From Neoaquamicrobium microcysteis (lineage in GTDB: Bacteria > Pseudomonadota > Alphaproteobacteria > Rhizobiales > Rhizobiaceae), in the NCBI RefSeq assembly GCF_008180155.1, contig NZ_VSZS01000064.1, forward strand, positions 62,001-126,000: a DNA stretch of 64,000 bases, in the 5' to 3' direction. Below the pieces are notes generated by a model. That model was not told the DNA's origin. It ran no database searches and saw only the letters and a list, made by a program, of their open reading frames with translations. Positions 13,331-17,039 of this stretch are shown in pieces. Both the position numbers and the translations under genes were made by a program. The first letter of the stretch is position 1, and the number at the start of each line of letters is the position of its first letter.

Positions 13331-13405
13331 CGCACCCGCCACTTGCGTGGAGCTTCCGCTGCGGATAGCAAGACGCGGCTGCAACTTCTTCCGAAAGGCT
13401 TTCCC

Positions 13406-14512
13406 ATGGCATCGCGCAAGCTCCTCCTTCTTCCCGGCGACGGCATTGGCCCCGAGGCGATGGCGGAGGTGAGGAAACTCATCGCGGTCATGAATGCGGA
13501 AATGAACGCCGGTTTCGAGACCGACGAGGGCCTCGTCGGCGGCTGCGCCTACGACACGCATGGCGCGGCGATCTCGGATGCCGACATGGAAAAGGCCATG
13601 GCGGCCGACGCCGTTCTGTTCGGCGCTGTCGGCGGGCCCAAGTGGGACGCCGTGCCCTACGACGTGCGGCCCGAGGCCGGCCTGCTGCGCCTGCGCAAGG
13701 ACATGGAACTGTTCGCCAACCTGCGTCCGGCCATCTGCTACCCGGCGCTGGCCGCCTCCTCCTCGCTCAAGCCCGAAGTGGTCGAGGGTCTGGACATCCT
13801 CATCCTGCGCGAGCTGACCGGCGGCGTCTATTTCGGCGAGCCCAAGGAGATCATCGACCTGGGCAACGGCCAGAAGCGCGGCATCGACACGCAGGTCTAC
13901 GACACGTTCGAGATCGAGCGCATCGCGGGCGTCGCCTTCGAACTGGCGCGTACGCGCGGCAACAAGGTCTGCTCGATGGAAAAGCGCAACGTCATGAAGT
14001 CGGGCGTGTTGTGGAACGAGGTCGTCACCGCCACCCACAAGGCGAAGTATCAGGACGTCGAGCTCACCCACATGCTGGCCGATGCCGGCGGCATGCAGCT
14101 CGTGCGCTGGCCCAAGCAGTTCGATGTCATCGTCACCGACAACCTGTTCGGCGACATGCTGTCCGACGTGGCCGCCATGCTCACGGGCTCACTCGGCATG
14201 CTGCCCTCCGCCTCGCTCGGCGCGCCCGACCCCAAGACCGGCAAGCGCAAGGCGCTCTACGAGCCGGTGCACGGCTCCGCGCCCGACATCGCCGGCCAGG
14301 GCATCGCCAACCCGATTGCCATGATCGCATCTTTTGCCATGTGCCTGCGCTATTCGTTCAACATGGTGGCCGAGGCCGACCGTCTGGAAGCCGCCGTCTC
14401 GGCGGTGCTGGACGACGGTCTGCGCACGCGCGACATCATGTCTGACGGTATGACGGAAGTCGGCACCGTCGCGATGGGCGATGCGATCGTGGCGAAGTTC
14501 CGGGCCGCGTGA
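13406..14512 (+). CDS. leuB: 3-isopropylmalate dehydrogenase
   Basis: LeuB oxidatively decarboxylates 3-isopropylmalate to 2-oxoisocaproate using NAD+, the last step before transamination to leucine. The 368-aa product starts at the ATG at 13406 ([19 protein letters not shown]). It shows GDGIGPE, the substrate-binding segment [13 protein letters not shown], the lysine region [16 protein letters not shown], the metal-binding [14 protein letters not shown] and the NAD-binding [17 protein letters not shown]. It is 76 bases downstream of the RidA gene and 1.6 kb from leuD. Confidence 0.96.
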
Positions 14513-15200: not shown

Positions 15201-15587
15201 TCAGTTGGCCGGCACCCGGCTCGGATAGACGTCGAAGGTTTCGCCGTTGACGATGATGCGCACCGCCTTCATCCATCGCTCGGTCGAATCGCGCGAGCGG
15301 TTGCCGATCGCATAGACCTCGTCGCCGACCTCGGCCTTGTCCTCAGTGAAGCCGGCGCGCTGGGTCGCCGCCGGTGTGGCGAGGTCTACGCGCCAGACCT
15401 CGCCGTCGATCTCGACATCCAGCGTCGGGTGCGGGTTTGCGAAGCTGATCGCGACGATCACGCCCTCGAGCTCGAAATAGCCATCCTCGGTCCACGCCCA
15501 GCCGTGATGCGCCACCGCCGCGCCGGCCCCGCCGATCACAAGCGCGCCGGCAAGGCAGGCCGCCCGGAAGAATGCGGTCAATGCCAT
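15201..15587 (-). CDS. DUF6152 family exported protein
   Basis: This 128-aa protein has a signal peptide (MALTAFFRAACLAGALVIGGAGAAVAHHG, cleaved after AVA) and a small OB-like beta domain: EGVIVAISFANPHPTLDVEIDG, WRVDLATP, VGDEVYAIGNRSRD. The HHGWAWTEDGYFELEGVI start of the mature protein is characteristic of DUF6152. The ATG at 15587 follows a GGAGAG ribosome-binding site. It is the first gene of a two-gene operon with the DUF6644 membrane protein. The exact role is not known. Confidence 0.8.
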   Translation of the reverse strand: MALTAFFRAACLAGALVIGGAGAAVAHHGWAWTEDGYFELEGVIVAISFANPHPTLDVEIDGEVWRVDLATPAATQRAGFTEDKAEVGDEVYAIGNRSRDSTERWMKAVRIIVNGETFDVYPSRVPAN

Positions 15588-15695: not shown

Positions 15696-15723
15696 TTGAC
15701 TCCCGACGCAAAGCGCGTAAAAG
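15696..15723 (+). promoter_or_regulatory. Candidate promoter of the asd leader transcript
   Basis: TTGACT (15696-15701) and TAAAAG (15718-15723) are separated by 16 bases and would start a transcript near 15730. The -35 element is good and the -10 element is weak. The position would place the leader reading frame close to the RNA 5' end, as in known attenuators. This is a by-eye prediction. Confidence 0.35.
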
Positions 15724-15747
15724 GCGGGCGCGAACTGGAAAAACGCG

Positions 15748-15879
15748 ATGCGCGGCCTTCTGACGGCATATCTGGCATTCTTCTCCCATGGCGGGCTTCT
15801 TGCCGCTTCGGGCACAGATGCCGCACGCGCGCGTTTCACCAAAACCATGGCCAAAACGACGACCACGAAAACGGTCTGA
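15748..15879 (+). CDS. Putative leader peptide of asd, Thr/Lys/Met-rich at its end
   Basis: The frame from the ATG at 15748 codes for 43 aa (MRGLLTAYLAFFSHGG at its start) and ends FTKTMAKTTTTKTV just before TGA at 15877. An internal ATG at 15847 would give the 10-residue peptide MAKTTTTKTV. Eleven of the last fourteen residues are Thr, Lys or Met, all end products of the pathway that asd feeds. This is the classic layout of a ribosome-mediated attenuator leader peptide. The ribosome-binding site is weak (GGA 8 bases before the first ATG). Translation and function are inferred, not shown. Confidence 0.45.
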   Translation: MRGLLTAYLAFFSHGGLLAASGTDAARARFTKTMAKTTTTKTV

Positions 15880-15900
15880 TTTCCCTTGGCCTTCTCGCCC

Positions 15901-15944
15901 TCTCCCCGGGTCTGGCCCGAGGGAGACGCCCGCAGCCGGCGGGT
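15901..15944 (+). promoter_or_regulatory. Tandem hairpins in the asd leader (possible attenuator)
   Basis: Hairpin one (15901-15926) has arms TCTCCCCGGG and CCCGAGGGAGA, 10 bp with one bulged A and a TCTGG loop. Hairpin two (15928-15944) pairs CCCGC with GCGGG and is followed by TCTTT. GGGTCT (15908-15913) could instead pair with AGA..CCC (15924-15931), which would break both hairpins, as an antiterminator would. The U-run is weak, so termination strength is uncertain. Confidence 0.35.
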
Positions 15945-16004
15945 CTTTCCAAACCAGCGGAGAGTTAGGCGTGGTCCGCCACGCTTCCACAAGGAGCAAC
16001 GGGA

Positions 16005-17039
16005 ATGGGTTTCAAGATTGCAGTCGCCGGCGCCACGGGCAATGTCGGGCGCGAAATGCTCAACATCCTCGAAGAGCGCGGCTTTCCCGCCGACGAGGTC
16101 GTAGCGCTGGCCTCGCGCCGCTCGGTCGGCTCCGAAGTCTCCTACGGCGACCGCACGCTGAAGGTTAAGGACCTTGCCACCTACGACTTTTCCGACACCG
16201 ACATCTGCCTGATGTCGGCCGGCGGCAACGTGTCCAAGGAATGGTCGCCGAAGATCGGCCGTCAGGGCTGCGTCGTGATCGATAATTCTTCGGCATGGCG
16301 CTACGATCAGGACGTCCCCCTCATCGTGCCGGAAGTGAACCCGGACGCCATCGAGGGCTTTACGAAGAAGAACATCATCGCAAACCCGAACTGCTCGACC
16401 GCGCAGCTCGTCGTCGCGCTCAAGCCGCTGCACGACAAGGCGAAGATCCGGCGCGTCGTGGTCGCCACCTACCAGTCCGTCTCGGGCGCGGGCAAGGAAG
16501 GCATGGACGAACTGTTCACCCAGACCCGCGCGGTCTTCGTGGCCGACCCGGTCGAGGCCAAGAAGTTCACCAAGCGCATCGCCTTCAACGTCATTCCCCA
16601 CATCGACGTCTTCATGGAAGACGGCCAGACCAAGGAAGAGTGGAAGGTGATGGCCGAGACCAAGAAGATGCTCGACCCGAAGATCAAGGTCACCTGCACC
16701 GCCGTGCGCGTGCCGGTCTTCATCGGGCATTCCGAAGCGGTCAACATCGAGTTCGAGAACCCGATCACCGCCGACGAGGCGCGTGAAATCCTGCGCGAGG
16801 CGCCGGGCTGCCTCGTCATCGACAAGCACGAGGACGGCGGCTACATCACCCCGCTGGAATCGGCGGGCGAGGATGCGACCTACATCTCGCGCATCCGCGA
16901 GGACCAGACGGTGGAAAACGGCCTCAACATGTGGGTCGTCTCCGACAATCTGCGCAAAGGCGCAGCGCTCAACACCGTCCAGATCGCCGAGCTTCTGGTC
17001 GCGCGCGGCCTGATCCAGCCCAAGAAGCAGGCCGCCTGA
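16005..17039 (+). CDS. asd: Aspartate-semialdehyde dehydrogenase
   Basis: Asd reduces 4-phospho-aspartate to aspartate semialdehyde with NADPH, the branch point to lysine/diaminopimelate, methionine, threonine and isoleucine. The 344-aa product carries the N-terminal NADP fold VAGATGNVGREMLNILEERGFP, the active-site cysteine in ANPNCSTAQLVVAL, SVSGAGKEGMDEL, and the substrate-binding H in VPVFIGHSEAVNIEF. The start is the ATG at 16005 with AAGGAG upstream. A long leader containing a Thr/Lys-rich peptide precedes it, and a hairpin terminator follows at 17057. Confidence 0.96.
   Translation: MGFKIAVAGATGNVGREMLNILEERGFPADEVVALASRRSVGSEVSYGDRTLKVKDLATYDFSDTDICLMSAGGNVSKEWSPKIGRQGCVVIDNSSAWRYDQDVPLIVPEVNPDAIEGFTKKNIIANPNCSTAQLVVALKPLHDKAKIRRVVVATYQSVSGAGKEGMDELFTQTRAVFVADPVEAKKFTKRIAFNVIPHIDVFMEDGQTKEEWKVMAETKKMLDPKIKVTCTAVRVPVFIGHSEAVNIEFENPITADEAREILREAPGCLVIDKHEDGGYITPLESAGEDATYISRIREDQTVENGLNMWVVSDNLRKGAALNTVQIAELLVARGLIQPKKQAA

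Follow-up and report, generated by a model that had tools for sequence, protein, structure and literature searches.

In the DNA analysed here (the window, 64,000 nucleotides from Neoaquamicrobium microcysteis), the gene for aspartate-semialdehyde dehydrogenase (asd) is preceded by a short leader ORF, whose stop codon lies 125 nt upstream of asd (Table 1). Asd supplies the metabolite from which the routes to threonine, lysine, methionine, and the diaminopimelate of the cell wall diverge. An earlier note on this DNA had described the short ORF, two hairpins between the ORF and asd, and a weak ribosome-binding site of the ORF, and all of these were found: the hairpins occupy 15898-15926 and 15928-15943, and the ribosome-binding site is TGGAA in our own reading of the sequence. 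The divergent neighbour (15201-15587, minus strand) encodes a DUF6152 protein of unknown function, and the stretch 13343-14512 upstream of asd is presumably leuB (3-isopropylmalate dehydrogenase), to judge by its sequence.

Table 1. Elements of the asd leader region, in window coordinates
Feature	Position	Strand	Basis or remark
Promoter-like element TTGACT-N16-TAAAAG	15696-15723	+	TTGAC at 15696-15700 kept among relatives
Leader ORF (putative sensor), 43 aa, C-terminal FTKTMAKTTTTKTV-stop	15748-15879	+	ATG at 15748, TGA at 15877-15879
Putative control codons: Thr/Lys cluster, Lys as AAA	15838-15876	+	Codon conservation
R2, pyrimidine-rich, directly 3' of the leader stop	15880-15891	+	Sequence; coevolution with R3 weak
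T, pyrimidine tract CCCUCUCCCCGGG	15898-15910	+	Pairs with both R3 and R4
R3, purine-rich arm of the local hairpin	15914-15926	+	T:R3 covariation and swap test
P3 hairpin GCCCGC-AGCC-GGCGGG, then UCUUUCC	15928-15950	+	Covariation
R4, GCGGAGAG, long-range partner of T	15957-15964	+	Swap test and covariation
Additional hairpin, separating R4 from the ribosome-binding site of asd	15968-15984	+	Sole exact copy is that of the window
asd Shine-Dalgarno sequence AAGGAG	15991-15996	+	Sequence
asd, aspartate-semialdehyde dehydrogenase, 344 aa, putative regulated gene	16005-17039	+	Pfam PF01118 and PF02774

The closest relatives were the best 80 of 578 asd relatives, which were treated as near kin of the window's family and include one MAG titled Rhodobacteraceae. 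At least seven Thr or Lys residues are present among the last 16 residues of the ORF end in 71 of these 80 loci, and the remaining nine end with IRITAKTTIK(T/I)V. When the window is included, each of the 81 ORFs chosen finishes in Val-stop at a distance of 98-165 nt from asd, and codon -7 is Thr in 78 and codon -8 is Lys in 74 of them, numbers to which the preference for Thr/Lys-rich ends in the choice of the ORFs contributes. Within the last 14 residues, at least seven are Thr or Lys in 72 of the 81 loci and at least five in all of them. The run itself varies within the genus (KSTTAKTV, KTTTEKTV, KTTAKTV), and the seven genus relatives do not all retain the four Thr in a row mentioned by the earlier note; the same applies to Met, which had been counted as part of the signal.

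The wider comparison covered 146 Rhizobiales genomes with asd, from which the window's own genome and nine truncated or contig-edge matches were removed, leaving 136 genomes of 48 families (for genome G068, which carries two asd copies, the copy closest to the window was scanned). Here, a leader was called when an ORF end with at least seven Thr or Lys among its last 14 residues was located 40-300 nt upstream of asd. Such an end was found in 72 of the 136 genomes and in 27 of the 48 families, compared with 0.05 expected from shuffles and 0/136 on the reverse strand. The 64 genomes below the threshold belong to a bimodal distribution, with humps near 2-3 and 7-10 Thr/Lys residues. Over the 72 genomes, the ORF ends 69-232 nt before asd (97-129 nt in 59 of them), and the last 14 residues are composed of 44 percent Thr and 16 percent Lys; Lys is present in every genome, Met in only 19. 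This composition is kept by differing peptides such as ALITKTTTIKTTKTTTV, VSKTSTTKTTTTA, and LTTFTTTTSDKTT, and, as judged by comparing these leaders, the conserved signal is Thr plus Lys, in composition and not in sequence. The earlier note had let its proposal of an attenuation leader for asd depend on whether the Thr/Lys codon run is kept in frame in close relatives. The run is conserved in frame there as well as across families, and this conservation strongly supports the attenuator reading.

For other alphaproteobacterial orders, the scan covered 60 high-scoring genomes out of 103 with a match and yielded a Thr/Lys-rich ORF end in five (0/60 on the reverse strand). In these five loci (L238, L251, L265, L270, and L281) the ORF ends 109-140 nt before asd, and the leader may be old there or may have been transferred. 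A search of viral contigs with asd gave one distant relative. In the window's own genome, no ORF end with at least six Thr/Lys among 14 residues was found near hom, thrC, and lysC on the gene strand of the four loci considered (L290, L291, L292, and L295). The pattern Thr-Thr-Thr-Lys-Thr occurs at two places in this genome, the asd leader and locus L288, the latter of which was considered as a second leader and rejected by eye.

The choice of lysine codons also sets the leader apart from the gene that it precedes. In the last 14 leader codons of the 81 close loci (the best 80 of 578 plus the window), AAA is used 219 times and AAG 24 times, compared with 58 AAA and 1871 AAG in the asd genes of the same loci; these counts are not independent, because the loci are related, many of them closely. 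The leaders of the order sample contain 119 AAA and 45 AAG codons. Rare codons at the control positions would fit a sensor of tRNA charging, but A-rich codons might also serve to keep the RNA open.

Moreover, the earlier note had named a plausible promoter ahead of the ORF, a claim that holds for a conserved element and receives no backing from a generic sigma-70 scan, which gave no promoter in the window. In 79 of the 81 loci (the window plus its 80 relatives), TTGAC stands no more than 260 nt ahead of the leader stop, and in 49 it is followed by TAA(A/G) after 14-20 nt. In control windows of equal length taken from the asd coding sequence, neither TTGAC alone nor the pair was found (0/81 each).

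The RNA between the leader stop and asd was examined with a swap test, which compares the pairing of two regions within a genome with that between families. In tight windows and with one genome for each of 27 families, the kinship between which is uncorrected, the strongest coevolution was obtained for T:R4 (mean z 5.1, p < 0.0005), followed by T:R3 (mean z 3.2, p 0.0013). The R2:R3 pairing reached a mean z of 1.46 (median p 0.06), and the R2:MID control was as high (1.48). No coevolution was detected in these 27 families for R1:R2, R2:R4, R1:R3, R1:R4, and T:MID. Two candidate pairings were rejected across families on this basis, namely R2:R4 and the R1:R2 pairing between GGCCAA of the ORF and UUGGCC downstream of its stop codon, which is tempting in the window. 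In an earlier swap test, the R2 window overlapped T; here, R2:R3 appeared stronger (p 0 to 0.006) and T:R4 weaker (p 0.0005 to 0.05), and signals were also given by R2:T and R3:R4.

Covariation among close relatives points to the same helices. From 52 non-redundant leaders, an alignment of 49 was made by leaving out L015, L017, and L019, of which L015 and L017 are without the usual GGAGAG of R4. Across T:R4, T:R3, and P3, nine pairs with changes on both sides were counted in the 49 leaders, and 11 of 18 in all 52. The covariation score was reached by none of 500 shuffles with either set, a comparison that kinship alone can beat; structures slid along the alignment of 52 leaders, which retain the kinship, scored at most 0.062, compared with 0.162 for the real structure. 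In all 52 leaders, P3 has changes on both sides in six of six pairs (84 percent of cells paired), and one T:R3 pair reads CG in 23 leaders and GC in 18, with the remaining 11 unpaired. Three of the six T:R4 pairs have changes on both sides, and the outermost pair is unpaired in 31/52. In a separate comparison for T:R4 alone, the number of double-change pairs was reached by 27 of 500 shuffles. In close relatives, T:R3 and T:R4 can partly coexist.

A covariance model built from the 49 leaders was applied to 100 loci of the order sample of 136. Among the 23 long loci of other families, ten of the 11 matches fall at the expected place shortly before asd and on the right strand, although their E-values are weak (0.02-0.67); the eleventh and best-scoring match (L106, 0.019) is at this place too, but on the wrong strand. 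In short loci, 12 of 18 matches are on the right strand. Against the window's own genome, the model gave the asd leader as its single match, with 150 of 4558 first-look candidates scored.

These data are best accommodated if the asd leader acts as a ribosome-sensed, Thr/Lys-responsive leader-peptide attenuator, a reading that we regard as very probable. Comparison of genomes supports the conserved ORF with its Thr/Lys codons and AAA bias, as well as the pairing of T with R3 and with R4. In the proposed mechanism, the leader would read the supply of charged threonyl- and lysyl-tRNA while a ribosome trails RNA polymerase through the ORF. With ample Thr and Lys, the ribosome would reach the stop and, as we assume, cover R2, whereupon T would become available to R4 upstream of asd, and little asd would be expressed. 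When Thr- or Lys-tRNA is uncharged, the ribosome would stall on the control codons and leave R2 exposed; R2 would then pair with R3, T would be held within the hairpin, R4 would be open, and asd would be expressed. Stalling as the signal, the direction in which the switch works, the part played by R2:R3, and the level of the output (translation or transcription) are inferred. The sensor and the gene are clear and the coupling between them less so, and the exact helix logic is offered as a tentative and rather doubtful proposal.

Folding calculations speak to individual steps of this scheme. When the first 13 nt after the stop (R2) were left out of the fold, T:R4 pairing increased in 19 of 26 families, decreased in six, and was tied in one, and its mean rose from 0.20 to 0.29, which is partly by construction because a competitor is removed. 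In a transcript cut at +62, leaving R2 out raised the share of T:R3 from 0.30 to 0.52, again partly from removal of a competitor. When R2 is free, it can itself fold onto R4 (0.53), a pairing for which coevolution was not seen. Equilibrium folding was rejected as proof of the switch and gave no support to a simple opening of the start site, since the stalled state is no more open: over 149 sequences, the mean change in openness at -20 to +3 of the asd start was -0.03 (27 up and 54 down by more than 0.05), and at -25 to -5 it was -0.05 (21 up and 59 down). Important to note here is that in the window 40 nt, including a hairpin, separate the end of R4 from the asd ATG, and R4 is therefore unable to mask the Shine-Dalgarno sequence directly.

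A different output is assumed if the leader is a classical transcription attenuator, in which P3 would serve as an intrinsic terminator that ribosome stalling prevents from acting. P3 covaries, and in some close relatives it is followed by UUUUCU- or UUUUU-like tails, but a U-rich stretch (at least five T in any six bases between stop+20 and ATG-20) is present in only 12 of 149 leaders, and P3 is absent or hard to see by eye in families f28 and f12. In the window, the tail UCUUUCC is the short U-run that the earlier note had already listed as a weak point, a terminator scan found none on the plus strand, and the asd leader is without the GC hairpin plus U-run before the gene that defines an intrinsic terminator. 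As U-runs are this rare, a terminator of the trp type is not the general output, and P3 may act as a terminator in some lineages at most; we regard the classical attenuator as unlikely. The layout of trp/thr/leu attenuators claimed by the earlier note is accordingly retained for the sensor, but not clearly for the output, where U-rich stretches are rare and the best supported pairing is the long-range T:R4 toward asd.

A further candidate output is Rho-dependent attenuation. Here, R2 and T would load Rho after complete translation of the leader, and the loading would be prevented by structure or by a stalled ribosome. By eye, R2 and T are C/U-rich and G-poor, U-runs are rare, and uORF-dependent attenuation, presumed to proceed via Rho, has been reported in S. 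meliloti in the part of the source considered (PMC12218461); by itself, however, Rho leaves the covariation of T:R4 unexplained, and we regard this output as a reasonable, though rather improbable, alternative.

It is much less probable still that the peptide is a functional small protein with no part in asd regulation. The S. meliloti peptide is translated and was recovered in tagged form in the soluble fraction, according to the portion of the report considered (PMC10117765), but only the Thr/Lys-rich end of the peptide is kept while the rest varies much (1.58, 1.71, and 1.73 bits of entropy at positions 1, 2, and 3 of codons -16 to -26), the ORF has a fixed position beside asd, and neither an NCBIfam family (three leaders tested) nor a Pfam family (window leader) was matched. 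The least credible reading is that conservation concerns RNA structure alone, with an incidental reading frame: close relatives do have very similar nucleotides in the codon run, but third codon positions are the freest in the last leader codons (0.46, 0.72, and 1.04 bits at positions 1, 2, and 3), other families encode Thr/Lys by different nucleotides, and R1 is without coevolution with R2, R3, or R4.

The attenuator reading can be stated in full as a Thr plus Lys leader (with AAA, the codon avoided by asd) that is old in Rhizobiales and occurs in some other alphaproteobacteria, and that would control asd without an intrinsic terminator through a long-range switch between pyrimidines and purines, in which T pairs with either R3 or R4, beside the asd start. 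For this complete version, our confidence is somewhat below even.

Leader peptides rich in end-product amino acids are known from other biosynthetic pathways. The thrL peptide of the enterobacterial thr operon, with Thr and Ile codons, controls thrABC and has an intrinsic terminator at its end. It resembles the asd leader in that a peptide rich in the end-product amino acid precedes a gene of the same pathway, whereas the asd leader combines Thr with Lys before asd and a terminator is mostly unseen. An RNA element likewise named after asd, the Rfam asd RNA motif, is found in Gram-positive bacteria and has no match in the window; 4227 Rfam families, including the Thr leader and the asd motif, gave no match to the window at gathering score.

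The closest described relative is the sORF SEP5 of S. meliloti, which is translated and was suggested to be a leader peptide in 2023 (Hadjeras 2023, PMC10117765); the earlier note knew of no described asd attenuator of this kind in Rhizobiales. According to the part of that paper considered, SEP5 lies in the 5'-UTR of a gene there named aspartate dehydrogenase, contains a cluster of Thr/Lys codons (6 Thr, 3 Lys), and is conserved 'only in Sinorhizobium' (PMC10117765). The Sinorhizobium loci L034-L036 end with SKTTAKTTTKTV, and since their Thr/Lys counts equal those of SEP5 (6 and 3), SEP5 is very likely the asd leader ORF and a member of the same leader family, as composition and place suggest. 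The two are alike in the codon cluster and in their place before the gene, whereas the description of SEP5, in the sections considered, is confined to Sinorhizobium and does not include RNA structure, codon bias, or mechanism (PMC10117765).

Leader-peptide control of a biosynthetic gene is also represented in S. meliloti by trpL/peTrpL, a 14-aa peptide encoded on the leaderless attenuator sRNA rnTrpL, as described in the portion considered of PMC10117765; PMC7298713 also concerns this attenuator. The asd leader peptide is longer, and an sRNA resembling rnTrpL was not found for asd in the literature searched. The open-licence literature searched contained no asd attenuator of Rhizobiales beyond the remark on SEP5, including the parts considered of PMC4117421, PMC3927594, PMC7143759, and PMC3738593. 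In the parts considered of the first three, 'asd' stands for anti-Shine-Dalgarno, and in the portion considered of Corbino 2005 (PMC1273637) the word asd is absent. Expression data for the asd leader under Thr or Lys limitation were likewise not found in the literature searched. Because SEP5 is partly known and no Rfam, NCBIfam, or Pfam match was obtained, the novelty lies in the breadth of the leader, its codon bias, its covarying structure, and the question of its output. If the attenuator reading is correct, a widespread sensor of two end products would show how these bacteria adjust a common step, and the guess made for one small protein of S. meliloti would become a testable family-wide regulator; since the output seems to do without a standard terminator, leader-peptide control would gain a further variant.

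Two further observations concern the loci themselves. Genome G068 (locus L092), which belongs to another family, has two asd genes, one of which shares 88 percent identity with the Asd of the window and is preceded by a short ORF ending with MIKKTTTI; this copy looks like a transferred one. Moreover, additional DNA of variable sequence lies between R4 and the ribosome-binding site of asd in the window and in seven genus relatives (L003-L009), and the spacing from leader stop to asd is longer, and of other sequence, in the seven relatives as well. In several of them, the extra DNA is of a palindromic GAGCATGA...ATGCTC type, and the Aliihoeflea loci L011 and L012 are without it; it may be an inserted intergenic repeat.
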